37,170 nt of DNA from Candidatus Dormiibacterota bacterium. Its GTDB lineage: Bacteria > Chloroflexota > Dormibacteria > Aeolococcales > Aeolococcaceae. Position 1 is the first letter of the stretch. Every line of letters starts with the position of its first letter. Shown here piece after piece: positions 1,678-32,290 of this stretch. The stretch is from assembly GCA_036495095.1 (NCBI GenBank), contig DASXNK010000145.1, positions 1-37,170 of the forward strand. Direction: 5' to 3'. The notes beneath the pieces were generated by a model, which had not been told where the DNA came from, searched no databases, and saw nothing but the letters and a program-made list of their open reading frames with translations. Position numbers and translations under genes: made by a program.

Positions 1678-3225
1678 CGCCACCGCCGCCGGCACCGCGC
1701 CTGCTGCGGCCACCGGCATCGGTGCGGCGGCCCGCCGCGCCGTCCGGTCGGGGAGCATCAGCGCCAGCGGCGCGCCGAGCGCGGTGATGCCGGCGGTCAG
1801 CAGGAAGACGTCGCCGAGGGCGCCGGCGAAGACGTGCACCTGGAGCACGCTGTAGAGGAGGAGGACGCCCGCCCGCCCCTGGGAGGCGATCTGCTGGAGC
1901 AGCGGGAAGCCGGGGTCGACGGCGGGGAGCAGCGCCGCCCGGTCGGCGAACTGCTGGGCCTGGTGCTGGGCGAGGATCGAGCCGAGCACGGCGAGCCCCA
2001 GCGCCCCGGCGACCCGCTGGATGATGTTCTGCATCGCGCTCGCCCGCACCACCAGCGCGGTGGGGAGCGTCGACATGGCGGCGGCCATCAGCGGCATGAA
2101 CGACAGGCCCATCCCCAGGTTGCGGATCGCCATCCATCCCATGATCGTCGCCCGCGGTGTCTCCACCGCGATCGAGTGCATCAGGTACGACGCCAGCGCG
2201 ACCAGGAGGACGCCGATCGCCACCGGCCAGCGTGCACCGATGCGGTCGAAGAGCCAGCCGGAGAGGGGCATCATCACCACCGTCACCAGCGCCGGCGGGA
2301 GCAGGGTCAGGCCGGTCTCGAACGGGCCGAGGCCCTGCGCCTGCTGGAGGAAGAGCGGGATGAAGTACAGGGAGGCGAAGAGACCGATCACGAGGACGGC
2401 GATCAGCACCGCGGAGATCGAGAACGCCGGTGATCGGAAGACGCGGAGGTCGAGCATCGGCTGCTCGACGGACAGCTCGACGACGACGAAGATCGCGAGG
2501 CAGGTGACGCCGAGCAGCAGCAGGAGGCGGATCCCGTAGGAGTCCCAGTGCCAGCGCTCGCCCTCGGAACATGCCAGCAGCAGCGCGAACAGTCCAGCGG
2601 AGACGGTCAGCCAGCCAAGCAGGTCGAGGCGCTGGCCCGAGACCGTGGGAAACCGCGGCAGCACCATCAGGGAGAGGGCGATGGCGGCGATCCCGATGGG
2701 GACGTTGATGAAGTAGATGAGCCGCCAGCTCACGTACTCGACGAGCCAGCCGCCGAGGGTCGGACCGATCGCCGGCGCGAAGATGACCCCGAGGCCGAAG
2801 ACGCCCATCGCCGTGCCGATGCGTTCGCGCGGGACGATCCGGTAGACCATCGCCTGCGACACCGCCGGGAGCAGGCCGCCGCCGGCGGCCTGGACGATGC
2901 GGAAGACGATCATCTCCTGGATGCTCGTGGCCAGGCCGCAGAGCGCCGAGCCGGCGACGAACAGCGCGAGCGCGGCATTGAGGACGCGGTCGAGCCCGTA
3001 GCGGTCGGCCAGCCAGCCGCTGAGCGGCACCACCACGCCGAGCCCCAGGGTGTACCCGGTCGCCACCCAGAGCACCTGGTCGGCGGCGGCGCCGAGCTCG
3101 ACCTGCATGGTGGGGATGGCGACGTTGACGATGCTGGTGTCGAGCACCGCCATGAAGCTGCCGATCATCACCACCGCGACCGGCAGCAGCCAGCCCTCCG
3201 AGTGTCGAGTGGGAACCCGGTTCAC
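1441..3225 (-). CDS. DHA2-family MFS drug-efflux transporter (EmrB/QacA type)
   Basis: Proton-driven multidrug exporter in the cytoplasmic membrane. The N-terminus carries the DHA2 signature VLDTSIVNVAIPTM, then GWLADRYGLDRVL (motif A) and GPTLGGWLV with NVPIGI. About 14 hydrophobic segments follow, ending near base 1740. I chose the GTG at 3225 because GGAGG lies five bases before it; an in-frame ATG at 3258 lacks a ribosome site. The start codon is also the first three bases of the recurrent palindrome. The last roughly 78 residues, Arg/Ala-rich and not transporter-like, are read antisense through the zwf relic, so the original stop was probably lost. It is divergent from the thioredoxin gene. 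Confidence 0.85.
   Translation of the reverse strand: MNRVPTRHSEGWLLPVAVVMIGSFMAVLDTSIVNVAIPTMQVELGAAADQVLWVATGYTLGLGVVVPLSGWLADRYGLDRVLNAALALFVAGSALCGLATSIQEMIVFRIVQAAGGGLLPAVSQAMVYRIVPRERIGTAMGVFGLGVIFAPAIGPTLGGWLVEYVSWRLIYFINVPIGIAAIALSLMVLPRFPTVSGQRLDLLGWLTVSAGLFALLLACSEGERWHWDSYGIRLLLLLGVTCLAIFVVVELSVEQPMLDLRVFRSPAFSISAVLIAVLVIGLFASLYFIPLFLQQAQGLGPFETGLTLLPPALVTVVMMPLSGWLFDRIGARWPVAIGVLLVALASYLMHSIAVETPRATIMGWMAIRNLGMGLSFMPLMAAAMSTLPTALVVRASAMQNIIQRVAGALGLAVLGSILAQHQAQQFADRAALLPAVDPGFPLLQQIASQGRAGVLLLYSVLQVHVFAGALGDVFLLTAGITALGAPLALMLPDRTARRAAAPMPVAAAGAVPAAVASADPEGGADGAVPLDAAWIPAPWSQEPVGHGRSPGRRRVERHRRRRSKDRVEGADQRGAAPDEGVVEQPLAGAGRRRR
3211..3225. promoter_or_regulatory. Palindromic motif I, copy 1 (MFS / thioredoxin gap)
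   Basis: On the minus strand it reads GTGAACCGGGTTCCC, an imperfect copy of GTGAACCNGGTTCAC. It sits between the divergent MFS and thioredoxin-hsp20-lon genes, about 60 bp before the thioredoxin ATG and covering the likely MFS start codon. One site could therefore act on both directions. Confidence 0.5.
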
Positions 3226-4194: not shown

Positions 4195-6557
4195 GCGAGA
4201 TCACGCCCCCGATCGCGATGCCGGGCGAGCAGGTCCTCCCCGCGCTGCTGCTGCCCACCGTGGCCGTCCTCCCCGGGCTGCTCGGGCCGCTCGAGGTGAG
4301 CGGACCGCAGGTCGCGGCGGTCGAGGCGGCGGCGGCCGAGAGCTGTCCACTCGCGCTCCACTGGGCGGGCCCGGGCGCCTCCGAGAGCTCGGCGCCGAAC
4401 CCGCACACCGCCCCGGCGATCGGCGTCTCGGCGGGGATCGCCCGCCTGGTGCGTCTGCCCACCGGCGGGGTGCGGCTGCTCATCCAGGGCACCGCCCGGG
4501 TGCGCCGCCTCGACGTCGTCGCCACCGAGCCGGTGCTCCGGGAGAGGGTGCGGCCGATCGAGGTGCCCCGGGCATCGCTCGAGGGCAACCCGCTGCGCGA
4601 CGCGGTGCTGAACAGCCTGCGCGCCGTCGTCCAGATGTCGCCGACGATCCCCGACGAGGCGGCGGTGATGGCCGCCAACCAGAACGATGCCGGGGAGCTC
4701 GCCGACGTCGTCGCCGGTGTCCTCGAGCTCTCCGCGGCGGACCGGCAGCAGGTGCTGGAGACCATCGATCCGGTCGCCCGGCTCGAGCTGGTGCTGCGAC
4801 TCTGCGAGCAGAAGCGCAGCCTGCTCGAGGTGTCCCAGCAGATCCAGCACCAGGCGAGCGAACGCGCGGGGGCGCAGCAGCGCGAGTACCTGCTCCGCGA
4901 GCAGCTGAAGGCGATCCAGCGCGAGCTCGGCGAGCTCGACCCCCAGGAGGCGGAGGTCGCCGAGCTGCGGCGCCAGGCCGAGGCGGCGGACCTCTCCCCC
5001 GAGGTGCGCTCCGAGGTCGAGCGCGAGCTCTCACGTCTCGAGCGACTGAACGCGGCGTCGCCCGAGTACGCGATCGTGCGCACCCGGCTGGACTGGATCC
5101 TGTCGCTCCCCTGGGGCCCTCCCCCACCGGTGGAGATCGACCTCGACGCCGCCCGCCGCGTCCTCGACGAGGACCACCACGGGCTGGAGAAGGTCAAGGA
5201 CCGCATCATCGACCACCTCGCCGTGGTCGCCCTGCGCGGCGGCGCGAGGGGACCGATCCTCTGCCTGCTCGGTCCGCCCGGCGTCGGCAAGACCTCGCTC
5301 GGCCAGTCCATGGCGCGAGCGATGAACCGGCCCTTCGTGCGCGCCTCGCTGGGCGGCATCCGCGACGAGGCGGAGATCCGCGGCCACCGGCGCACCTACG
5401 TCGGCGCGCTGCCCGGCCGGATCATCCAGGGGATGCGCCGGGCGAGCGCCCGCAACCCGGTGTTCATGCTCGACGAGGTCGACAAGCTTGGCCTCGGCTA
5501 CCAGGGAGACCCTGCGGCCGCGCTCCTCGAGGTCCTCGACCCGGCGCAGAACTCGAGCTTCACCGACACCTACCTCGACCTGCCCTTCGACCTGTCGCAG
5601 GTGTTCTTCGTCTGCACGGCGAACCAGCTCGACACCATTCCCGGCCCGCTGCGCGACCGCATGGAGATCATCGAGCTGAGCAGCTACACCGAGGCGGAGA
5701 AGCGCGAGATCGCCCGCCGCCACCTGCTTCCCCGCGTGCTGTGCGAGCACGGGCTGCCCCAGGACGCGATCGAGATCGACGACGGCGTCCTCAGCGAGCT
5801 GATCCGCGGCTGGGCGCGGGAGGCCGGGGTGCGCCAGCTGGAGCGGCAGCTCGCCGCCTGCTGCCGCAAGGTGGCGCGCGAGCGGCTGCGGGGACGCACC
5901 GAGCCGGTGCGCGTCACCCGCGACCTCCTGGTCGAGTGGCTCGGCCCGGAGCGCGCCGACGACATCGGCATCGAGGAGGAATCGTCGATCGGCGCCGCGA
6001 CCGGGCTCGCCTGGACGCCGGTCGGCGGCGAGGTGCTGAGCGTCGAGGCGGCGGTGGTCCCCGGCAGCGGACGTCTGACCCTGACCGGTCAGCTCGGCGA
6101 CGTCATGCAGGAGTCCGCGCGCGCCGCGATCACCTGCGCACGGCTGCGCGCCGAGCGGCTCGGGCTGCCCGCGGACTTCTTCGCGCGGCACGACCTCCAC
6201 CTCCACGTCCCCGCCGGGGCGGTGCCCAAGGACGGGCCGTCGGCGGGGGTGACGATGGCGACCGCGCTCGTCTCGGCGGCGACGGGGCGGCGGGTGAACC
6301 GCTGCTGGGCGATGACCGGGGAGATCACCCTCCACGGTCTCGTGCTCCCCATCGGCGGGGTGAAGGAGAAGGTGCTCGCCGCGGATCGCGCCGGGGTGGA
6401 GGGCGTGCTCCTGCCGCGCCGCAACCAGCGCGACCTCGTCGACATCCCCGCCGAGGTGCGCGAGCGCAGGCGGATCGAGTTCGTCGACACCGTCGACGAG
6501 GTGCTCGACCGGGTCCTGGCGCCGGCGGGGGAGCGGGAGCTCGTCGCCCCGATCTGA
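4191..6557 (+). CDS. lon: ATP-dependent protease Lon
   Basis: Cytoplasmic AAA+ serine protease of 788 residues, the usual Lon length. An N-terminal substrate-binding domain and a coiled-coil region (about 210-300) precede the AAA+ module with Walker A GPPGVGKT near 361 and Walker B VFMLDEVDKL. The C-terminal peptidase domain carries the Ser-Lys dyad: Ser near 684 in PKDGPSAGV and Lys near 725 in GGVKEKVLAADRAG. The ATG overlaps the hsp20 stop by four bases. The gene converges on clpB with only 13 bp between the stops. Confidence 0.97.
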   Translation: MSEITPPIAMPGEQVLPALLLPTVAVLPGLLGPLEVSGPQVAAVEAAAAESCPLALHWAGPGASESSAPNPHTAPAIGVSAGIARLVRLPTGGVRLLIQGTARVRRLDVVATEPVLRERVRPIEVPRASLEGNPLRDAVLNSLRAVVQMSPTIPDEAAVMAANQNDAGELADVVAGVLELSAADRQQVLETIDPVARLELVLRLCEQKRSLLEVSQQIQHQASERAGAQQREYLLREQLKAIQRELGELDPQEAEVAELRRQAEAADLSPEVRSEVERELSRLERLNAASPEYAIVRTRLDWILSLPWGPPPPVEIDLDAARRVLDEDHHGLEKVKDRIIDHLAVVALRGGARGPILCLLGPPGVGKTSLGQSMARAMNRPFVRASLGGIRDEAEIRGHRRTYVGALPGRIIQGMRRASARNPVFMLDEVDKLGLGYQGDPAAALLEVLDPAQNSSFTDTYLDLPFDLSQVFFVCTANQLDTIPGPLRDRMEIIELSSYTEAEKREIARRHLLPRVLCEHGLPQDAIEIDDGVLSELIRGWAREAGVRQLERQLAACCRKVARERLRGRTEPVRVTRDLLVEWLGPERADDIGIEEESSIGAATGLAWTPVGGEVLSVEAAVVPGSGRLTLTGQLGDVMQESARAAITCARLRAERLGLPADFFARHDLHLHVPAGAVPKDGPSAGVTMATALVSAATGRRVNRCWAMTGEITLHGLVLPIGGVKEKVLAADRAGVEGVLLPRRNQRDLVDIPAEVRERRRIEFVDTVDEVLDRVLAPAGERELVAPI

Positions 6558-22546: not shown

Positions 22547-23467
22547 TCAGCGCCGCCACCGCCTCCTGAACGTCCCCGACCCGGGGGGGGATCCGGCCGT
22601 GAACGCCTCGGTGCCGAAGGCCGGCTGGACGCCCCCCAGGTCGGTGTGGCTGTGCAGGTACGCGAGCTCGCGGCTCAGGTCGCCGACCCCGTTGGTGCCG
22701 GGGACGGGGACGAGGTCCACAGTGCTGAGGACGCCGAGGGCCCGGCCCTGGGAGTCGAGGTAGGCGCTCCCGGAGTCGCCGGGGATCCCGGGCGACCTGG
22801 TCAGCACCCGATGGCTCCAGCCGTTGCCGCAGTCACCGAGGCTGACGCCCTGCTTCGACGCCAGCGGCGCGAGACCCATGGCCAGCTCGGAGTGGCCGTA
22901 CCCGTAGATCTGCTCGCCGGTGGATGTGCCCGCGGCGGAGATCCCGACCGGGCCGCCCCAGGTCGGGATCGACGGGTTGACCGAGCCCAGGTCGGCCGGA
23001 TCCAGCTCGACGAGCGCCAGGTCGTTGTACCGGCAGGCGCTCGAGTCGGTCTCGTGCAGCCCCTTCATGGTCAGCCAGGAGCTGTAGACGATCTTCCCGG
23101 GATGCTTCGCGCCGCGGATGTCGACCGGTGTGCCCAGAGGCAGCGACGACGCCGTGCATCCATCGGTGGTGCCGGTCGCATCGGTGCTGGAGCAGTGCGC
23201 CGCCTGGCCGACATACACGTGCGCGCGGTTCGTGAAGATGAAGTTCGCGGTGCACTGCGCGCCGTTCGTGTACAGCTGCACGCCGGGGTGGACGGTCGCC
23301 GCCGCGGCCGGAGCCCATGTGGGCGCCGCCGACACCGAGGAGGATGTGCCGCCGGCGAGGGATCCGGCCGACACCATGACGGCGAGTGGAGCGCTGAGAC
23401 GGTGCACCGGTCCGGTCCTCCTGGAGGTTCGATGGGTCGTCCGCCGCGGGCCGAGCTCGTCCGTCAT
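22547..23467 (-). CDS. Exported trypsin-like serine protease (S1 family)
   Basis: 306 residues. A signal peptide (about 20-48, ending SVSAA) precedes a chymotrypsin fold with all three catalytic residues visible: His 91 in VYVGQAAHC, Asp 149 in YNDLALVEL and Ser 232 in PGIPGDSGSAYL. Cysteines near the active site fit secreted S1 disulfides. The ATG overlaps the stop of the upstream exported protein (ATGA), so the two are coupled and probably act together outside the cell. Substrate unknown. Confidence 0.88.
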   Translation of the reverse strand: MTDELGPRRTTHRTSRRTGPVHRLSAPLAVMVSAGSLAGGTSSSVSAAPTWAPAAAATVHPGVQLYTNGAQCTANFIFTNRAHVYVGQAAHCSSTDATGTTDGCTASSLPLGTPVDIRGAKHPGKIVYSSWLTMKGLHETDSSACRYNDLALVELDPADLGSVNPSIPTWGGPVGISAAGTSTGEQIYGYGHSELAMGLAPLASKQGVSLGDCGNGWSHRVLTRSPGIPGDSGSAYLDSQGRALGVLSTVDLVPVPGTNGVGDLSRELAYLHSHTDLGGVQPAFGTEAFTAGSPPGSGTFRRRWRR

Positions 23468-24441
23468 CGCAAGGGTTGCGGGTCGGCCCACGGGCTGCCC
23501 ACCCAGGTGGTTCCGACGCCCACCACCCGCTGCGCGTGTCCATCGCTGGCCGACGCGACGGCCCCGCCGCTCCCATCGCCGCGCAGCAGGGCGACGCTCC
23601 CGACCCGCGGAAGCGCGACCCCGTGGTCGTCCTTCTCCGTCCCCGAGGAGCCGATCTCGTCGCCGTTGACGGACGCCAGGTAGGTGTGCCCGGGGGCGTC
23701 GCTGGAGCCGTCCGAATGGAGGACCACCAACGCGATCCAGCCTGCTCCGACGCCGGCGCGGGCCGCGTTGCTCTGGCTGCTCGCATGCGACGCGGATCCG
23801 CTGTGGGCGGCGTCGCTCGTCGACTCGGCGACGGTGGTGGTCACCACCCCGCCCTCGCCGAACCCGAGGTCGAGAAGAGCGCCCCGGGTGTGAGCCCGCG
23901 AGCCGCTCTGGGTGGCGGTGGCGTCGCCGTCCCACCCGGCGACGGCCAGCCGGAGCAACGAGTTGGAGGGGACCACGGCGGCGGCGCCGTTCGCGTACCC
24001 GTTGGCGGGCACCTGGCCCTCGCTCACGTTCTCGCCCGCCAGCCGGAGCTCGCGCCCCTCGCCACCCGAGGAGTTGCGTCCCGCCTGCGCGCTCGTGCAG
24101 CTCAGGCAGGTGGCGAGGAGATCGAGGTTCAGCCCGTAGGCGTCCGCCTCGAGCGGACCGGCGTCCTGGATCTCGGCCCGGGAGGCCGGGATGCCGGCGG
24201 GCGGTGCGTCACTCGTGCGCACCGCGGGGCGGGGCGCGGCGCCGGGGACGGGAGCGGCAACCACCGCCGAGGCCGGGCCGCCCGGCGCCGTGCGGGTGGC
24301 TGCGACCACCGCCGGGCCGGCGGGGCCGTGATCGGCGCCGGAGGCGTGGCCCGCGCCGGCGTGAACGGCACCCACCGCGCAGACGGCGAGAGTTCCGGCC
24401 ACACCGGTGAGGAATCGGTTCCAACCCAGCTGCTCAGCCAA
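23464..24441 (-). CDS. Exported Ala/Gly/Ser-rich protein of unknown function
   Basis: 325 residues, not recognised. An N-terminal hydrophobic stretch (FLTGVAGTLAVCAVGAVHAGA) looks like a signal peptide. A low-complexity Ala/Pro segment (about 35-85) leads to a region with a CLSC pair and the more ordered SLLRLAVAGWDGDATAT and GAGWIALVVLHSDG. The TTG start at 24441 is chosen for the strong GGAGGTGA just before it. It is first in an operon with the serine protease, so it may be the substrate, a carrier or a wall component. Motif II lies 60 bp ahead. Confidence 0.7.
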   Translation of the reverse strand: MAEQLGWNRFLTGVAGTLAVCAVGAVHAGAGHASGADHGPAGPAVVAATRTAPGGPASAVVAAPVPGAAPRPAVRTSDAPPAGIPASRAEIQDAGPLEADAYGLNLDLLATCLSCTSAQAGRNSSGGEGRELRLAGENVSEGQVPANGYANGAAAVVPSNSLLRLAVAGWDGDATATQSGSRAHTRGALLDLGFGEGGVVTTTVAESTSDAAHSGSASHASSQSNAARAGVGAGWIALVVLHSDGSSDAPGHTYLASVNGDEIGSSGTEKDDHGVALPRVGSVALLRGDGSGGAVASASDGHAQRVVGVGTTWVGSPWADPQPLR

Positions 24442-24500
24442 TGATCACCTCCGGCCAATACCCAGTCGATGGTGGCCACCGTACCGGGACTCGCCGGTCA

Positions 24501-24532
24501 CGTCATCGACAGTCCTGACCAGCTTCGCCTCG
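24501..24532 (-). promoter_or_regulatory. Promoter-like motif II, copy a
   Basis: On the minus strand the core CTGTCGATGACG ends 60 bp before the exported-protein start. GAAGCTGGTC lies directly upstream of the core, in the place of a -35-like element. Same orientation as its downstream gene. Confidence 0.5.
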
Positions 24533-24704
24533 TCACTTCGCACTAGGCGCGGCGGCGACTCCGCTCGCCGGAAAACAGGTCATGTGAGTGATGTCCCGGT
24601 GCGGGCGCCGGCGGACACTGGTGGTGATCCACAGCGAGAGGATCGGTGGCAACGAAGGTGGCCGCGGGCCACCCGCGGATTCACACAGCGGAGGAGGCAG
24701 AACC

Positions 24705-25136
24705 ATGAGGATGGGTGTGCGTCTCGCCGGCGTGGCGGCGGTCGTCCTGCTCGCCGGCACGGTGTCGACGGGTACGGCGGCACTCGCCGCGACCACGACC
24801 GGCGCCGCGATCCCGGCCCAGGGCGTCGGCGTTCTGGACCACGGGCATTTCGGTCACGACCGTGGACATGGACGTTGGAGTCACGGTGGCTTCGACCGGG
24901 GCGGTCGGGGTCACGGCGAACGCTACGTCCTGGCCAGCTGGGGTCGCGGAGGCGGCTACGACCAGGGCGGCTGGGGTCGCGGCGGCGATGGCCGCGGCGG
25001 CGACGGCTATGGCTATGGCCGCGGCGGTGACGGCGGCGGCTATGGCTACGGCCGCGGCGGTGACGGCGGCGGCTATGGCTATGGCCGCGGCACGGGTTTC
25101 GGCGGTCATGGGGGTCTCGGCTTCGGCCCGAGGTAG
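24705..25136 (+). CDS. Secreted Gly/His/Tyr-rich repeat protein
   Basis: 143 residues. A clear signal peptide (about 1-29, ending ALAA) is followed by a His/Asp/Gly-rich stretch (HGHFGHDRGHGRWSHGG) and tandem GYGYGRGGDGG repeats to the C-terminus. The composition suggests an unstructured cell-surface or metal-binding protein, perhaps structural; no enzyme domain. The ATG at 24705 follows GGAGGAGG. It is divergent from the exported-protein/protease operon. Confidence 0.8.
   Translation: MRMGVRLAGVAAVVLLAGTVSTGTAALAATTTGAAIPAQGVGVLDHGHFGHDRGHGRWSHGGFDRGGRGHGERYVLASWGRGGGYDQGGWGRGGDGRGGDGYGYGRGGDGGGYGYGRGGDGGGYGYGRGTGFGGHGGLGFGPR
25005..25091 (+). repeat. 33-bp in-frame tandem repeat
   Basis: Two full 33-bp units (25005-25037, 25038-25070) and a partial third encode GYGYGRGGDGG. 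The two full units differ at one base, so they are recent and could vary in number between strains. Confidence 0.85.
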
Positions 25137-25149
25137 AGGCTCCTGACCG

Positions 25150-25191
25150 CCGGGCGGGCGTCGGTGGCGATCGTCGCCGGCGCCCGCCCGG
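25150..25191. terminator. Strong bidirectional hairpin
   Basis: An 11-bp perfect stem (CCGGGCGGGCG / CGCCCGCCCGG) with an inner GGCGA/TCGCC pairing lies between convergent stops at 25136 and 25199. No T-run; position and strength fit a two-way terminator. Confidence 0.75.
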
Positions 25192-25198
25192 AGGATGG

Positions 25199-25648
25199 TC
25201 AGCTCGCGCTCCTCGAGTGCACCCTCTGAACCGGCCACCACTTCTCGTGCGCACGAGGCATTCCCCCGCCGGCGTTCCGGCGCGGCCGGGCGGTGAGCCG
25301 CGACCCCCTCCTGGATGCGGCCCCGCGGAGGTCCACCCGGGACACCGGCAGATCGAGGGCGACCTCGATGTACAGCGTCTGTTCGTCCAGCGCAGCCACG
25401 AGCTCCTCCATCACCGGTGGCGGAGCCGCCAGCAGCACCGCCGCGTCGAGCTGACCGATGCAGGCGCCCAGGAGGTCGCGCGCGTCGCGACCGACCGCTG
25501 CGCTCCGATCCGCGTGGAACTCCAGCACATAGGCGTATGCGATCAGCGCCTCCGCGGCTGCGGGCACGGTCACTCCCGCGCTCCTCGCGGCGTCGTACCG
25601 GTCGCGGGCCCTGCCCAGCTGATCGGGGTGTCCGCCGTTGTCAGCCAT
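25199..25648 (-). CDS. Hypothetical protein
   Basis: 149 residues, not recognised. The first 100 residues look helical (LIAYAYVLEFHADRSAAVGRDARDLLG, VMEELVAALDEQTLYIEVALDLP); the C-terminal 45 are Arg-rich and poorly ordered. ATG 25648 has GGAGA upstream. Promoter-like motif II lies 61 bp ahead. Confidence 0.5.
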   Translation of the reverse strand: MADNGGHPDQLGRARDRYDAARSAGVTVPAAAEALIAYAYVLEFHADRSAAVGRDARDLLGACIGQLDAAVLLAAPPPVMEELVAALDEQTLYIEVALDLPVSRVDLRGAASRRGSRLTARPRRNAGGGMPRAHEKWWPVQRVHSRSAS

Positions 25649-25708
25649 CTCGATTCTCCAATGCCCGTGAGCCGCGCTCGGACACAGGGTAGGAACTCGA
25701 ATCCGCAC

Positions 25709-25740
25709 CGTCATCGACAGAAGCGGCTAGCTTTGACGTC
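25709..25740 (-). promoter_or_regulatory. Promoter-like motif II, copy b
   Basis: Core CTGTCGATGACG on the minus strand, with CAAAGCTAGCC upstream of it, 61 bp before the hypothetical gene start, almost the same spacing as copy a. Confidence 0.5.
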
Positions 25741-25782
25741 GGTCGTTCACCGAGGTTGACGAGAGCGCGTTGCCCCCGCACC

Positions 25783-26538
25783 CTAGGTGAGCCCGCGCTC
25801 GAGCGCGTAGCGCGTCGCCGCGCTCCTGCTCGCCACCCCGATCTTGCGGAAGACGGATCGCAGATGAGCTGCGACGGTGTGCTCGCTCAGGTGCAGCCGC
25901 CTCGCCACCTGCGCATTGGTGAGTCCCTCCGCGACCACCCGCAGGACGCCGATCTCCCGATCCGTGAGGCCGGGCATGCCCCCGCGCGCGCCCGACCCGC
26001 CGGCCGGTGGCGGCATCTGCGCCACCGCGCGGAGGTCGGCGTCGAGGCGCCTCGGTGCCGACCACATGGACCCCCGGGCCGATCGTCGGGAGGCGCGGCA
26101 GCAACGGCGCGATGCGCGGCGCCTCGGCGGGGTTGCACCGGCCGTGAGGGCGCGGTGACCGGTGCCGGCGGGGGCCGGCTCGCCGCCCGGCAACCGGCCG
26201 GCCTCGCCGGCGGTGTCGCCAGCCTCCTGCTCGGTGCGCGCACAGGTCTCGCGACGCGGATAGGCGGCGTTCAGGAGCTCCTCCTGCCAGTCGAGCAGAC
26301 GCTCATGGAGTGCGTGGGTGGTGGTCGCGCTCGACACCGCCACCGGGACGACGAGCCCGCCGGCCTCGAGAGCACGTCGCCAACGGGGCAGCATTCCCAC
26401 CCCCACCTCCTCGCGCTGGAGATGGCGCTGCTCGAGGATCTCGAGCAGTGTGTCGACGGCCGCGATCCCGGCTCGAGCGCGCCGCTGGCGGTCCTTCTCC
26501 GTGTCGATGTCGCCGGCCCGGTTCTCGAGAGCGGTCAT
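25783..26538 (-). CDS. LuxR-HTH regulator with an N-terminal unknown domain
   Basis: 251 residues. Residues 1-100 match the stand-alone protein at 32693-33058: [54 protein letters not shown]. The C-terminal 65 residues are a full LuxR helix-turn-helix ([20 protein letters not shown], then [20 protein letters not shown]). The linker between (about 110-175) is Arg-rich and unlike a folded domain; codon preference moves to another frame around 26101-26160, so a frameshift there is possible. ATG 26538 overlaps the stop of a leader peptide and has no ribosome site of its own. Confidence 0.75.
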
Positions 26539-26588
26539 CACCGGGTACCGTCGACCGGTCGCCGTGAGTGGGTCGGTTCGCTGCTCAT
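26538..26588 (-). CDS. Candidate 16-residue leader peptide
   Basis: A short frame, [16 protein letters not shown], begins with ATG 26588 after a near-ideal AAGGAGG and ends with TGA sharing one base with the ATG of the LuxR gene (TGATG). Translation of the regulator probably depends on ribosomes leaving this frame. It could be plain coupling or a sensing leader; no attenuator hairpin is evident. Confidence 0.5.
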
Positions 26589-27011
26589 CTCTCGCCTCCT
26601 TGGTCAGGGATCGGCGCGACCCGTGGGTCGTCACCGTCCGGTGCTGCCAGTCGACCGGAGTGTCTCAGCGGCTCAGTTGCGGATCCCGGGCGACATCGCT
26701 GCGAAGCGGGAGACCGAGAGTCGGGAGGACGACCACCGGCGCGACACCTGTGGCGCCGCGCGTGCGGTGTGACATCGCACCTCTCGACAGCGGTGGCTCC
26801 CCAGCTGCTGTGGCTGTCCGTGCGATCAGGTTGACGCACGCCCGAGGGCGGCTGCGCCGTTCATCTGAACGGAATCGTCATCGTTCGTTTGGAGGAGAGG
26901 CGATCACGCCGCCGTCGGGTGGCGACTCGCCGCACCGCGGTTCGACTGGGGGCGGGACTGGGGCAACCCGGATGCGATGACGCTGGGATGAATGGTACCC
27001 GGTGACGCATC
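26589..27011. other. Divergent intergenic region between LuxR and kinase genes
   Basis: About 420 bp without a supported gene and visibly less GC-rich than its neighbours. It holds the perfect inverted repeat 26857-26872, followed by GGAGGAGAGG at 26891, which looks like a ribosome site but has no start codon at the right distance. Confidence 0.4.
26857..26872. promoter_or_regulatory. Perfect inverted repeat, candidate operator
   Basis: CCGTTCATCTGAACGG, two 7-bp arms around TC, lies in the LuxR/kinase divergent gap. The TGAAC half-site recalls motif I but the spacing differs. Confidence 0.4.
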
Positions 27012-28559
27012 ATGAGGAAAGAGACGATCGGGCAATGTCTCGTCTTCGCCGGCCGAGTGCTCCCCCGCAGTCTGGCGGAGACCGGCCACATGTGCCAAGG
27101 CTCTATGCTGCGATTCGTGCACCGTTTCAGGAATGGAAGGTTGCCTGAACGCCTGGCCCCGTTCGCCGTCGGTGTGGTCGGCGTTGCCGCCATCTCCGCC
27201 GCAATCGGTGCGATCAGGGGCCTTGGGACCACCGTGCCCTCGCTCAGCTCGGCCTATCTGCTGCTCGTGCTCTGGATGGCCGCGCGCTACGGCTGGGGAG
27301 CGGCGCTCTGGGGTACGGTGCTGTCGTGCCTCGTCTACGACTTCTTCTTCGTCGCCCCCTACCTGGCCTTCCTCCCCCTCAGCGCCGAGGATGGGGAGGA
27401 GGCGATCGTGCTGCTCGTCTTCGCGCTGGCGGGGGGGCGCCTGGTCGCGTCGGTCGCCGCACCCATGGCCGAGGCGGCGGCGCGGGCCCGGGAGTCGGGC
27501 ACCCTCTACGACCTCGCGGTCACCGCGCTCCGCGACCGCCAGGCCACGTCGGTGCTGTCGAACCTCTGCGAGCGGGCGCGCGAGGTCGGGCATCTCAGCA
27601 CCATCAGCCTGGTGGAGGTGCGGCCGGGTGAGGCGCGGACGGTGGCCGGCGACGAGCTGTCCGAGGCTCAGCTGCACGCGGCACGCCACGCGTACGACGA
27701 GGGCACCGCATCGGGGACGGAAGCCACGGATTGCCGGCTGAACACGCTGCGCGGCGGTCGGCCGCAGGCGGCCACCGAATACCTGCTGCTCCGCAGCGGG
27801 ATCGCCGTGCTCGGACGGCCGGCCCAACGTCCCGACGAGACCGACCAACGCCTGCTGGAGGCGCTGCTGGGGCTGACCAGCCTCATCCTCGAGCGCCGGC
27901 GCTGGGCCGCGGTGATGGAGGAGGAGCGGCAGCGGATCGCGCGCGACATCCACGACGACACGCTGCAGACCATGGGGGCCATGGCCCTCCGCCTCGACCT
28001 CCTGTGCGAGGAGATCCAGGACCCGCGCCAGCGCGAGATGGTCGACCAGCTGCTCACCCTGGCCAGGGATTCGTCGGAGCGCCTCCGCTCGATCGTCTTC
28101 GAGCTCCGCTCCGACCTCCTCGAGGAGGGCTTGACGAAGGCGATCACGGCCGCCACCCACGACCAAGCTGCCGAGGCGGGCATCGATCATCGAGTGACCG
28201 GGCACCTCACCGCCGAGCCACCCCTGGAGGTCGCTCTCGCCCTCTACCGCATCGCCCAGGAGGCCCTGGCGAACGTGCGCAAGCACGGCGAGGCGAGCCG
28301 GGTGGAGGTCTCCCTGGCGGAGGAGGGTGGCACCCTCCGGCTGCGGGTGGTCGACGACGGCCGGGGCTTCGATCCGGCGGCGGCCACCCAGCACCTCCCC
28401 ACCGGTACGCGGGGCCGGGACCGCCGGTTCGGGTTGCGCTCGATGAGCGAGCGCGCCCGGCTGATCGGTGGCCAGCTCACGGTCAGCAGCGTGCCCGGAC
28501 AGGGCACCGTGGTCGAGGCGCGGGTGCCGGTCAGGACCGGGCCGCGAGCGGCCGCGTAG
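27012..28559 (+). CDS. Sensor histidine kinase with DUF4118 membrane domain
   Basis: 515 residues. Several transmembrane segments in a KdpD-like DUF4118 domain (FAVGVVGVAAISAAIGAI, SAYLLLVLWMAARYGWG, LSCLVYDFFFVAPY) are followed by a GAF-like region, a HisKA_3 helix with the phosphorylated His near 314 (ERQRIARDIHDDTLQ) and a HATPase domain (IAQEALANVRKHG, VVDDGRGFD, GQGTVVEARVP). It autophosphorylates and should pass the phosphate to a NarL-type regulator, most simply the adjacent one at 28570-29256. Start 27012 is the first ATG; 27105 is equally possible since both ribosome sites are weak. Confidence 0.9.
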   Translation: MRKETIGQCLVFAGRVLPRSLAETGHMCQGSMLRFVHRFRNGRLPERLAPFAVGVVGVAAISAAIGAIRGLGTTVPSLSSAYLLLVLWMAARYGWGAALWGTVLSCLVYDFFFVAPYLAFLPLSAEDGEEAIVLLVFALAGGRLVASVAAPMAEAAARARESGTLYDLAVTALRDRQATSVLSNLCERAREVGHLSTISLVEVRPGEARTVAGDELSEAQLHAARHAYDEGTASGTEATDCRLNTLRGGRPQAATEYLLLRSGIAVLGRPAQRPDETDQRLLEALLGLTSLILERRRWAAVMEEERQRIARDIHDDTLQTMGAMALRLDLLCEEIQDPRQREMVDQLLTLARDSSERLRSIVFELRSDLLEEGLTKAITAATHDQAAEAGIDHRVTGHLTAEPPLEVALALYRIAQEALANVRKHGEASRVEVSLAEEGGTLRLRVVDDGRGFDPAAATQHLPTGTRGRDRRFGLRSMSERARLIGGQLTVSSVPGQGTVVEARVPVRTGPRAAA

Positions 28560-28569
28560 GCGGGGCCGC

Positions 28570-29256
28570 TCAGCGCTCGATCAGCCGGAGCTCCACCGCC
28601 CGGGCCAGCACCTCCAGCTTGGAGTGCGCGTTCAGCTTGCTGCTGAGATTGCGAAGGTGGCTGCGAACGGTGACGTAGGCGATGCCCAGCCGGGCGGCGA
28701 TGCCGCGGTTGTCGAGACCCTCGGCCAGGAGTCGCAGGATCTCGTGCTCGCGGGGCGTCAGCCGGTCGAGCAGCTCGGTGACGCCCCCGGAGCCGGTGAT
28801 CAGCCCGGCCAGCGTGGCGGCCGGGATCAGGAGCTCGCCGGCGGCGGCGCGACGGACGGCGTCCACCAGCTCCGATGCCGGCTGCGTCTTCAGCAGGTAG
28901 CCGCGGGCGCCGGCCTTGACCGCCTCCCGGAGGAGCGCGTCGTTCCTGACCATGCTGAGGAACAGCACCCGGAGCGCGGGCTGCCGCTCACGAAGCCTCG
29001 CCGCAACCTCGGCGCCGGTCGCATCGGGAAGCTGGTAGTCGATCAGCAGGAGGTCGGGACAGGTCGCCGGCGCGAGCGTCAGCGCCTCGGCGGCGTCACC
29101 GGCGACGCCGACCACCTCGAGATCCGCGTGCTGGTCGAGGAGCAGGCGGATCCCGTCCGCCACCACCGGGTGGTCATCGACGATCAGCACGCGCACGGGC
29201 GAGCGCTGCCGGCCGCCAGGGGCCGGGCTCCGCCAGCCGTTCCCGTTCACTGTCAT
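28570..29256 (-). CDS. NarL/FixJ-family response regulator
   Basis: 228 residues: receiver domain with VLIVDDHPVVADGI, the phosphorylated Asp in LLLIDYQLPDATG and the Lys of YLLKTQP, followed by a LuxR-type HTH (LTPREHEILRLLAEGLDNRG, then GIAYVTVRSHLRNLSSKL). It converges on the DUF4118 kinase with 10 bp between stops, an unusual convergent arrangement for a cognate pair. The 97-bp gap upstream is shared with the divergent receiver protein. Confidence 0.92.
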   Translation of the reverse strand: MTVNGNGWRSPAPGGRQRSPVRVLIVDDHPVVADGIRLLLDQHADLEVVGVAGDAAEALTLAPATCPDLLLIDYQLPDATGAEVAARLRERQPALRVLFLSMVRNDALLREAVKAGARGYLLKTQPASELVDAVRRAAAGELLIPAATLAGLITGSGGVTELLDRLTPREHEILRLLAEGLDNRGIAARLGIAYVTVRSHLRNLSSKLNAHSKLEVLARAVELRLIER

Positions 29257-29353
29257 GTTGGTCGCCCGAGTCTAGTGGTCGAGGAGGCACGCGCGATCTA
29301 CTCCATTTGGCGGGTTTCCCGCGGCGCAATGCCATGCGAGGGTGAACGGGACC

Positions 29354-29752
29354 ATGCCTCAGGAATCACCGATCAGCGTGCTCATCGCCGACGACGACCA
29401 GCGCATGGTGGACACCCTCACCGCGCTGATCGAGAGCAGGCCGTTCCTCCGGCTGGCCGGAGTCGGCGGTGACGCCACCGAGGCCGTCGCCATCGCGACC
29501 CAGGTCCGGCCCTGCGTGGCGCTGCTCGACGTGAGGATGCCGGGCGGCGGCGCATCCACCGCTCGATCGATCCGCGCGGCGTCGCCGCGAACGCGCTGCG
29601 TCGCGCTCTCCGCCTACTGCGACCTCGACAGCCTCGCAGCGATGCGTGAGGCCGGTGTGGTCGACTACCTGCTCAAGGGGAGGGCCTCCGTCGCCGACAT
29701 CGTCCGGGCAATCCGGCGCGCGGCCGGCCAGGACGGGGATCGGCCCACCTAG
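29354..29752 (+). CDS. Stand-alone receiver-domain protein
   Basis: 132 residues, a single CheY-like receiver domain without output: VLIADDDQRMVDTL (acidic pocket), phosphorylated Asp in VALLDVRMPGG, Ser/Thr in CVALSAY and Lys in YLLKGRAS. It may compete for or relay phosphate from a NarX-like kinase. ATG 29354 with GAGGG upstream; an in-frame GTG at 29342 is possible. Its stop is 5 bp from the converging small gene. Confidence 0.88.
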   Translation: MPQESPISVLIADDDQRMVDTLTALIESRPFLRLAGVGGDATEAVAIATQVRPCVALLDVRMPGGGASTARSIRAASPRTRCVALSAYCDLDSLAAMREAGVVDYLLKGRASVADIVRAIRRAAGQDGDRPT

Positions 29753-29757
29753 GCCAC

Positions 29758-30048
29758 TCAGTTCTCCCCGAGCACGATGTGGGGCTGGATCCCGTTGTCG
29801 AGCGACCACGCTCCCACCGCCGGGGCGGGACGCTCCTCCTCCTGCGCCAGCTCCCGACGGCGGCCGCGAGCGAGGCGGGTGGCGGCACGAGCGACCGCCT
29901 CCAACGCCGACTGCTGATCGCCGTGGGTGCCGGCCATCAGCGAGGCGAGATGCTCCACCGCGAGGTCGACGTCGTCGGCCGGCTCCGGAAGCGGACGCTC
30001 CGGGGCCGACAGCCGGTCGGGGTGTGCCAGGGTGGCGGTGGCGCTCAC
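29758..30048 (-). CDS. Small unknown protein B1 of duplicated cassette
   Basis: 96 residues, not recognised. The C-terminal part, RRRELAQEEERPAPAVGAWSLDNG, is clearly related to protein B2 (30253-30507); the N-terminal helix region is longer than in B2. GTG start, overlapping the stop of A1 (GTGA), so it is coupled. No signal or membrane segment. Confidence 0.6.
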   Translation of the reverse strand: MSATATLAHPDRLSAPERPLPEPADDVDLAVEHLASLMAGTHGDQQSALEAVARAATRLARGRRRELAQEEERPAPAVGAWSLDNGIQPHIVLGEN

Positions 30049-30200
30049 GGGGTCTCCTCCGAGGGGGTTTCGACGACGACATGCGCCTCGTACCGGGTGC
30101 AGCTTGCGCGCAGCCGGTCGAGGGCGGCGACGGCGGCGGAGCGGGTGCGGTAGCCCACGCAGAGGGCCGGACCGTCGGGTGATTCGAGGATGGCGAACAT
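30045..30200 (-). CDS. Small unknown protein A1 of duplicated cassette
   Basis: 51 residues: MFAILESPDGPALCVGYRT, a helix AAVAALDRLR, and HVVVETPSEETP. The pattern beta-beta-helix-beta suggests a small folded domain. It is the same length as A2 and about three quarters identical. The ATG is preceded by AGGAGA at the same place as in A2; a longer start at 30278 would run through motif II and was rejected. Confidence 0.65.
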   Translation of the reverse strand: MFAILESPDGPALCVGYRTRSAAVAALDRLRASCTRYEAHVVVETPSEETP

Positions 30201-30252
30201 TCGGCGGGCTGTCTCCTGACGGTCGGGTGCGGGGCGCGCCGCTCGGAGAACG

Positions 30253-30507
30253 TTAGGCGCCGCCCATCCGACCGTCATCGACAGAACCGACTAAGTTCGG
30301 AGCGCGGTCGCCCGTTCGGAGTGAGGACCGACGAGCGCGGCCCTCACGAGTTCTCGCCAGGTCGGGTCGGGCGTCGGGCAGCATGCCGTTGTCGAGCGAC
30401 CACGCTCCCATCATCGGGACCGGGCGCTCCTCGTCGAGACGCACCTCGCGCCGGCGGCGGCGGCCCAGCTGGGTCGCGGCACGGGCGAGGGCGGCGATGG
30501 CGGTCAC
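30253..30507 (-). CDS. Small unknown protein B2 of duplicated cassette
   Basis: 84 residues. AIAALARAATQLGRRRRREV and EERPVPMMGAWSLDNG match B1; the last 35 residues do not, and they overlap motif II copy c, so the ancestral stop may have been lost. GTG start overlapping the A2 stop (GTGA). Confidence 0.55.
   Translation of the reverse strand: MTAIAALARAATQLGRRRRREVRLDEERPVPMMGAWSLDNGMLPDARPDLARTREGRARRSSLRTGDRAPNLVGSVDDGRMGGA
30273..30302 (-). promoter_or_regulatory. Promoter-like motif II, copy c
   Basis: Core CTGTCGATGACG with GAACTTAGTCGG upstream, 73 bp before A1. It overlaps the C-terminal codons of B2, so the end of B2 and this element share DNA. Confidence 0.5.
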
Positions 30508-30659
30508 GGTGTCTCCTCGGGCGGGGTCTCCACGACGACGTGTCCCTGGTAGACGCCGCCACTCTCGCGCAGCCGCTCGAGGGCTGCGACAGCGCCCGCG
30601 AGGGTGCGGAAGCCGACGCAGAGCGCCGGTCCGTCGGGTGATTCGAGGATTGCGAACAT
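30504..30659 (-). CDS. Small unknown protein A2 of duplicated cassette
   Basis: 51 residues, MFAILESPDGPALCVGFRT with AVAALERLRES and HVVVETPPEETP, a paralogue of A1. ATG 30659 preceded by AGGAGA. It lies 70 bp after the GAF/LuxR regulator on the same strand and could be transcribed with it. The longer frame from 30770 overlaps that regulator and was rejected. Confidence 0.65.
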   Translation of the reverse strand: MFAILESPDGPALCVGFRTLAGAVAALERLRESGGVYQGHVVVETPPEETP

Positions 30660-30729
30660 CAGCGGCTTTCTCCTGACAAACATCGTCGCTCCCGCCGCCG
30701 GCGCCCAGGCCTGTACGTCGGGACAGTCT

Positions 30730-31914
30730 TCACCTGTTGAGCGGCCGCGAATCAGCCGGTCTGTCGCCACGCTGGACGACGAGACGGGTCAGGTCGACGC
30801 GGGAGTCCACACCGAGCTTGTGGAAGATATGGCGGAGGTGATAGCCGACGGTGTGGGGCGAGAGGAACGTCGAGGCGGCGACCTCGCGATTGGTGCGTCC
30901 CTCGCTCACCAGCTCCGCGACGCTGCGCTCGGTCTCGGTGAGGCTCTCCCACCCCAGTGCCGGATGGTGGCTCCGCCGTTCGGGAGCGACGGGGCGGTCG
31001 CCGGTGGCCGCCATCGGCGGCGGCAGGAAGCGCAGCAGCGCGCCGATGACCTCGCTGCCGTCGGCGACGGTCTCGCAGGCCACCAGCGCCGAGCCTCCGG
31101 GCGGCACCGGGAGCTCGAACGCACCGCGCTGCTGCCCGGACAGGGTCGACGAGACGAGGTCCCAGAGCAGACCCCGGTCGATGTCGTGCAGCAGCTTGAC
31201 CGCCGGGGCGTTGGTGTACATGGTGTGCCCGTTGAGGGCCACCAGGGCCCCACGCGCACCCCGCCGGGCGCGCAGGAACCGTTCGAGCAGGAACCGGTCG
31301 GCGGCGGGGTTCGCGCCGACGAGGCGGTGCTCGATGAGCCGGGCAGACCGCTTGGCCACCGCCAGCATCAGCGAGTGCGACCCCTCCACCGAGCAGGTCA
31401 GGTCGACCACGCCGAGAACCGAGCCCGTGATCGGGTCGAAGATGGGGGCCGCGGCGCAGGCCATCTGGCCGAGGGCGTCGGCGAAGTGCTCACTGCCGGT
31501 CACCATCGACGGTGCCCGTTCCTCGAGCGCCGTGCCGATGGCGTTGGTGCCGACCCGGCTCTCCTGATAGGAGGAACCGGGCGCGAGACTGATCCGGTCG
31601 AGGTTGGCACCCAGAGCTCTGTCGCGGAACAGACGATCGAGGATGTGCCCGTGCCGGTCGGCGAGCAGCAGGCCCATCGATGTGGACTCGAGGTCCTCGA
31701 CCAGACGGTCCAGGACGGGACGGGCGGCGCGCTCGAGACGCTCGTCGCCCGGCGCCGAGGGTTGGTGGGGAACCACCAGCCGGTCGGGCTGAAGGTCTGA
31801 CGCGAGCGACCGGTGCCACGAGGCGGCGATCTCGGGACGGACCGCGGCGCTCGTGGATCCGGTGGAGCGGAGCTCGTCGAGTGCGACACGCAGGTCGAAC
31901 CGGTCTTCTGCCAT
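30730..31914 (-). CDS. AcoR-like GAF sensor with LuxR-type HTH
   Basis: 394 residues. The N-terminus has the AcoR pattern (RPEIAASWHRSLASDLQPDR) and a GAF-like domain (GLLLADRHGHILDRL, GTNAIGTALEERAP, GVVDLTCSVEGS). In classical AcoR a sigma-54 AAA+ domain and Fis HTH follow; here the C-terminus is a LuxR HTH (LTETERSVAELVSEGRTNRE, then FLSPHTVGYHLRHIFHKLGV). It is a one-component regulator of unknown ligand. ATG 31914 follows AAGGAGA; a start at 32124 would absorb motif II and was rejected. Confidence 0.85.
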   Translation of the reverse strand: MAEDRFDLRVALDELRSTGSTSAAVRPEIAASWHRSLASDLQPDRLVVPHQPSAPGDERLERAARPVLDRLVEDLESTSMGLLLADRHGHILDRLFRDRALGANLDRISLAPGSSYQESRVGTNAIGTALEERAPSMVTGSEHFADALGQMACAAAPIFDPITGSVLGVVDLTCSVEGSHSLMLAVAKRSARLIEHRLVGANPAADRFLLERFLRARRGARGALVALNGHTMYTNAPAVKLLHDIDRGLLWDLVSSTLSGQQRGAFELPVPPGGSALVACETVADGSEVIGALLRFLPPPMAATGDRPVAPERRSHHPALGWESLTETERSVAELVSEGRTNREVAASTFLSPHTVGYHLRHIFHKLGVDSRVDLTRLVVQRGDRPADSRPLNR

Positions 31915-32290
31915 CTTGGGTCTCCTTCGCCCCCCATTCGCGATCGACGGCGTTTGGGCCGGCCGATCCGTGATCAGGCGATCACCGGCGGGCGATGCCG
32001 GCGAGCGCACATCGGGGGGGGAACTCCGAGACTGCTCCTCATTCTCAGGTTCCCCTTGACCGTGCGAACGCGATGCGCCAGCACCCTCGAGATCAACGGT
32101 AGGCATCATGATGCAGTGCGTCATCGACAGAACCGACGAACTCCAGAGCGCGACGCTCTAGTCGAGAATGACGGTGCGCAATAGTCATCACCGGCGATGA
32201 CATGGCGGGGACGTCGCGACATCATCGGTCTCCGCGCGTCGTCGAGCCATCGCGACTCGAGGACCAGGACCGAACGAGGAGGTGCACAGC
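31915..32290. other. Leader and divergent gap upstream of GAF/LuxR regulator
   Basis: About 375 bp. Contains motif II copy d (32119-32150) and the inverted repeat GTGATC-AGGC-GATCAC at 31970-31985, a possible operator in the roughly 200-bp leader. The frame of the regulator stays open through the leader, but codon pattern and ribosome site favour 31914. I see no other gene. Confidence 0.4.
32119..32150 (-). promoter_or_regulatory. Promoter-like motif II, copy d
   Basis: Core CTGTCGATGACG with GGAGTTCGTCGG upstream, on the minus strand, 205 bp before the GAF/LuxR start. Copies c and d share the 18-bp GTCGGTTCTGTCGATGAC. Confidence 0.5.

Follow-up and report, generated by a model that had tools for sequence, protein, structure and literature searches.

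Five promoters of this bacterium, four in the window (the whole stretch of 37,170 nucleotides analysed here) and one on another contig (C178), appear to form one small regulon, each being predicted to combine a promoter for an ordinary sigma factor with an activator box overlapping the -35 region, a reading to which we assign a probability of about two in three. A single regulator probably turns on the five genes or operons jointly, and the regulon is a new one of a familiar kind.

Promoter sites and their targets

The sequence-only reading of the window had described four promoter-like elements with a perfect 12-bp core, facing leftward toward the next gene. Indeed, CTGTCGATGACG is present without mismatch at 24501, 25709, 30273 and 32119, always on the minus strand, with no other exact match in the window, and the core-to-start distances given (60, 61, 73 and 205 bp) are correct, with starts at 24441 (TTG), 25648 (ATG), 30200 (ATG) and 31914 (ATG). 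GTTCTGTCGATGACG, thought to be shared exactly or nearly so by three copies, is exact in two of the window copies, the third reading CTTCTG and the fourth GGACTG. The GAAC/AAAG/GGAG/GAAG bases, which had been placed 18-20 bp before the core, begin 14 bp before it throughout, or about 20 bp ahead of its centre. The sites (exact cores, ungapped alignment) and their targets are as follows:

24501-24526, minus strand: site A, upstream box (24507-24526) and -35 ATGACG (24501-24506)
24478-24483, minus strand: site A, -10 TACGGT, 17 bp after the -35; predicted transcription start near 24470
23464-24441, minus strand: site A target, 325-aa exported-looking protein; TTG start after GGAGGTGAT; no family match
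25709-25734, minus strand: site B, upstream box (25715-25734) and -35 ATGACG (25709-25714)
25686-25691, minus strand: site B, -10 TACCCT; predicted transcription start near 25678
25199-25648, minus strand: site B target, 149-aa protein; no family match
30273-30298, minus strand: site C, upstream box (30279-30298) and -35 ATGACG (30273-30278)
30250-30255, minus strand: site C, -10 TAACGT; predicted transcription start near 30242
29758-30200, minus strand: site C targets, overlapping genes for 51-aa (30048-30200) and 96-aa (29758-30048) proteins
32119-32144, minus strand: site D, upstream box (32125-32144) and -35 ATGACG (32119-32124)
32096-32101, minus strand: site D, -10 TACCGT; predicted transcription start near 32088
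30730-31914, minus strand: site D target, 394-aa regulator with a DhaR-like N-terminal half and a LuxR/GerE C-terminal domain

The fifth promoter, site E, stands upstream of a pyruvate kinase gene on C178, the product of which matches both pyruvate kinase domains, and the unit also holds a gene for a receiver-domain protein. Behind the regulator gene of site D are two small genes (30504-30659 and a frame ending near 30340). The targets had been summarised as small-protein and exported-protein genes; such genes are present, but the list was incomplete, as it lacked the regulator gene and the pyruvate kinase gene on the other contig. Leaders computed from the -10 positions are predicted to be about 30, 31, 43, 175 and 52 nt long for sites A to E.

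Several observations were made around these sites. Site E lies in a stretch (C178:4893-5600) between the pyruvate kinase gene and a divergent Fur-family gene, which is followed by katG. Beyond the box on its upstream side, sites D (32119-32165) and E (positions 4918-4970 of locus L018, the same stretch) have TCGACTAGAGCG and CGCGC in common, which may be a second element or the trace of one promoter having been copied from the other. The small-gene pair is duplicated in tandem (30026-30200 with 30485-30659 at 80% identity, and 29779-29894 with 30373-30488 at 77%); only the copy starting at 30200 has a promoter directly upstream, the other standing behind the regulator gene. The genome has four clear copies of the family to which the 51-aa protein belongs (65-76% identical to this protein), and neither Pfam nor NCBIfam gave a match. 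One of these genes (C123:3723-3872) is followed by that of a 95-aa partner resembling the 29758-30048 product, and the motif was not found at this paralogue or at C25:17073-17210. Divergent from site A, the plus strand at 24706-25137 has what looks like a signal-peptide-like start, followed by in-frame 36-nt repeats that encode Gly/Tyr-rich sequence. In the left part of the window, a partly palindromic 12-mer, GAACCCGGTTCA, recurs at 3213, 13939 and 19580, and is possibly the element that the sequence-only reading had called motif I.

The core lies at the -35 region

Ungapped alignment of the five copies revealed a second block, CCTACCGT, 16-23 nt downstream of the core, past an unconserved stretch of 15 nt. 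The T, A and final T of this block (TAnnnT) never vary among the five copies, and the 60 nt following each core contain a single TAnnnT, every time at offset 18. The core ends in ATGACG, so that the spacer from ATGACG to TAnnnT is 17 bp in five of five. The -10 variants are TACCGT (twice), TAACGT, TACCCT and TACGGT; on the minus strand of the window TAnnnT is rare, with 12 occurrences in 37 kb, four of these in the regulon promoters. The ATGACG hexamer matches TTGACA at four of six positions and TTGACG at five of six. Weaker conservation extends a further 14 bp upstream from the core, reaching about 20 bp beyond the -35, and gives an upstream box with a consensus of about RAAGnTnGTCGGTTCTGTCG, which abuts and overlaps the -35. 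No significant symmetry was detected in this box (best dyad 0.475 paired, shuffled mean 0.50).

The genome's own genes were used to see whether TAnnnT serves as its housekeeping -10, with a sample of 873 kb made of stretches covering about 20% of the genome. Among 690 TAnnnT sites, ATG followed at 6, 7, 8 and 9 nt in 23, 39, 15 and 27 cases, compared with about 2-11 at other distances. This peak is the mark of leaderless genes with the -10 at its usual place, and its strength in the sample suggests that leaderless genes are common in the organism. TTGAC[A/G] before TAnnnT was commonest at 17-18 nt, in nine of the 15 pairs with a spacing of 8-27, the numbers being small. In 145 putative leaderless promoters the commonest -10s were TACCCT, TACCAT, TACGCT, TACGGT and TACCGT, which include three of the four regulon variants. 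A gene which, by reading its sequence, we take to be radC has TTGACA-N17-TACCGT directly before its ATG. The same TAnnnT -10 has been documented, together with leaderless transcription, in M. tuberculosis (PMC3898074). Given TAnnnT at fixed spacing as the housekeeping -10 of the genome, the core, as judged from the alignment, covers the -35 (ATGACG) and the bases just upstream, not the -10. An earlier suggestion that the core itself might lie at -10 is thus not borne out, as it is the second conserved box downstream that matches the housekeeping -10; the broader proposal of one shared promoter class facing the next gene is strongly supported.

Occurrence in the genome and in relatives

The exact 12-mer CTGTCGATGACG occurs nine times in the 4.375-Mb assembly (96.6% complete), and its reversed control does not occur. 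The nine comprise the four window sites, the C178 promoter and four copies in apparent coding sequence, three of which fall within long frames, while the one on C144 is at what looks, by eye, like the start of a gene with a good ribosome-binding site. Read on the opposite strand, the 12-mer can encode Val-Ile-Asp-Ser, and this would account for such a coding-sequence background. With up to two mismatches, the core gave 21 matches in the window where 8.0 were expected, mostly background.

A genome-wide search for the core together with TAnnnT, at up to three mismatches, returned five exact sites and five with two mismatches, but not one with a single mismatch, and TAnnnT was absent from four of the two-mismatch sites; within these limits neither a one-mismatch site nor a clear two-mismatch promoter was found as a further regulon member. 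A weak candidate is C200:10543 (CTCTCCATGACG with TACGGT). A sequence-only profile built from the five sites gave these 36-44 bits and no other place in the genome more than 16 bits, the next match being coding; as the profile was trained on the same five sites that it finds, the evidence is the gap in scores and not the scores themselves. In the 873-kb sample GTCGATGAC occurs 40 times, with TAnnnT at the regulon spacing in these five only, and the 9-mers common to at least four of 687 sampled TAnnnT sites at one offset are those of the regulon class only.

Beyond this genome, over 400 genomes of the phylum yielded no convincing copy of the promoter. An exact-pattern search of 60 genomes gave nothing convincing, and the best matches of a profile search in 31 genomes of the family (three loci, 18-19 bits) lie in apparent coding sequence. 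At up to three mismatches, 399 other genomes of the phylum gave 11 single matches, not each inspected, compared with three for the control; the genome sets searched overlap. Six members of the class carrying related regulators showed nothing convincing for the motif, and no repeated promoter elements of note were seen in the nearest regulator clusters of two genomes (G089 and G051). A literature search on TGTCGATGAC gave no promoter motif among the matches listed, and one on ECF42 with TGTCGA gave no match.

Proposed mechanism and candidate activators

We propose that each promoter joins a housekeeping (sigma-70 type) core, with -35 ATGACG, a 17-bp spacer and -10 TAnnnT, to the upstream box. 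The off-consensus -35 and the shared box at about -57 to -36 suggest a class II activator, which, bound to the box, would contact RNA polymerase at the -35. Features of both promoter types are seen: a TTGACA-like -35 at a distance in the range of 16-18 bp from a -10 of the housekeeping type (ATGACG at 17 bp, five of five), and a shared box abutting and overlapping the -35, the conserved bases starting 14 bp ahead of the core and running on into the -35. Activation would then extend to five units, namely the exported protein, the 149-aa protein, the small-protein pair, the DhaR-like/LuxR regulator with its small genes, and pyruvate kinase with the receiver-domain protein.

The putative activator, as to its identity, its binding and its action, is probably one of the LuxR-type regulators encoded in the same cluster. 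The first candidate, held tentatively, is the 30730-31914 protein, which would be autoregulated. It comes first because the promoter is found at its own gene and because it has no full-length relative, in parallel to the motif: in 109 other genomes of the class none was found, the matches covering the N-terminal part only. Another candidate, which we consider unlikely, is a NarL-type regulator encoded nearby with its likely partner:

28570-29256, minus strand: NarL-type response regulator; no motif upstream
27012-28559, plus strand: sensor histidine kinase (DUF4118, HisKA_3), likely partner of the 28570-29256 regulator

The NarL-type regulator has 53% identical relatives in genomes where the motif was not found. 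Arguing from the co-occurrence of regulator and motif is weak, as it draws on one genome and the two same-genus genomes are only 67-68% complete. A second kinase-like stretch, at C99:21637-22281, is 71% identical to the C-terminal part of the histidine kinase.

Alternative readings

It had been left open whether the motif marks a sigma-factor class or an activator site, and of the two the activator is favoured, owing to the ordinary -10 and spacer and to conservation about 20 bp upstream of the -35, which is more than a -35 needs. A dedicated alternative sigma factor might instead read an extended -35 (CTGTCGATGACG) and the CCTACCGT box directly, with no activator, as the invariant 12-bp block, the identical spacing in five of five and the very small regulon would allow. 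This we hold to be unlikely, since the -10s are ordinary housekeeping variants, conservation extends well upstream of the -35, the geometry of ECF41 promoters is not that found here, and no sigma-factor gene was seen among the target genes examined. Many alternative sigma factors control their own gene, autoregulation being common, not universal. Somewhat less probable again is a variant in which a dedicated sigma factor, or another factor binding RNA polymerase, reads the 12-bp extended -35 with an ordinary -10, making this a promoter class so far seen in a single species.

The box could also be an operator, at which a repressor, or a regulator with a dual role, would block the -35, the promoters being ordinary in other respects; it does overlap the -35, and the targets include a gene for a regulator, a situation known from autorepressors. 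The off-consensus -35 (ATGACG vs TTGAC[A/G]) is nevertheless better suited to activation and the dyad typical of repressor operators was not found, making this reading improbable. That the copies reflect chance similarity, or a repeated element with no regulatory meaning, is very hard to credit: the genome has a very high G+C content and another four exact 12-mers lie in apparent coding sequence, but the reversed control gave none, two separate conserved blocks flank unconserved sequence, all five copies stand upstream of genes, and no other 9-mer is common to at least four of the 687 TAnnnT sites.

Comparison with known systems

Class II activator promoters are known for LuxR/NarL-family regulators such as NarL and DevR/DosR. 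As in those promoters, the box here abuts and overlaps the -35, and LuxR-type regulators are encoded beside the targets; however, the box is unlike the NarL and DevR/DosR sites, activator binding is putative and a dyad was not detected. LuxR-type proteins often bind dyads.

The TAnnnT promoters of M. tuberculosis resemble those described here in their -10 and in the many leaderless genes (PMC3898074), but no -35 consensus was found in that study, whereas here the -35 region does not vary among the five promoters, which also have an upstream box in common. The ECF41 sigma-factor promoter, TGTCACA-N16-CGTC, shares with the present sites a TGTC at the upstream element and a very small regulon (PMC3426412). 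An ECF41-like promoter was rejected, as CGTC was not found 15-17 nt after TGTCGAT in the five sites and the TAnnnT -10 is too far from TGTC. The Pcauto motif of Clostridium autoethanogenum, whose TetR-family regulator was tested in vivo (PMC6873888), is likewise the motif of a limited gene set and is served by the housekeeping sigma factor together with a regulator, while the regulator here is a candidate.

Taken as proposed, the five sites make up a complete and checkable regulon, its transcription starts predicted, in a bacterium represented here by a draft assembly only. The analysis also offers a simple route to assign a shared motif to the -35 or the -10 from sequence, with the genome's own leaderless genes as the yardstick. 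For the organism, the regulon would link pyruvate kinase, encoded on a different contig, to a signalling cluster with many LuxR-type regulators.
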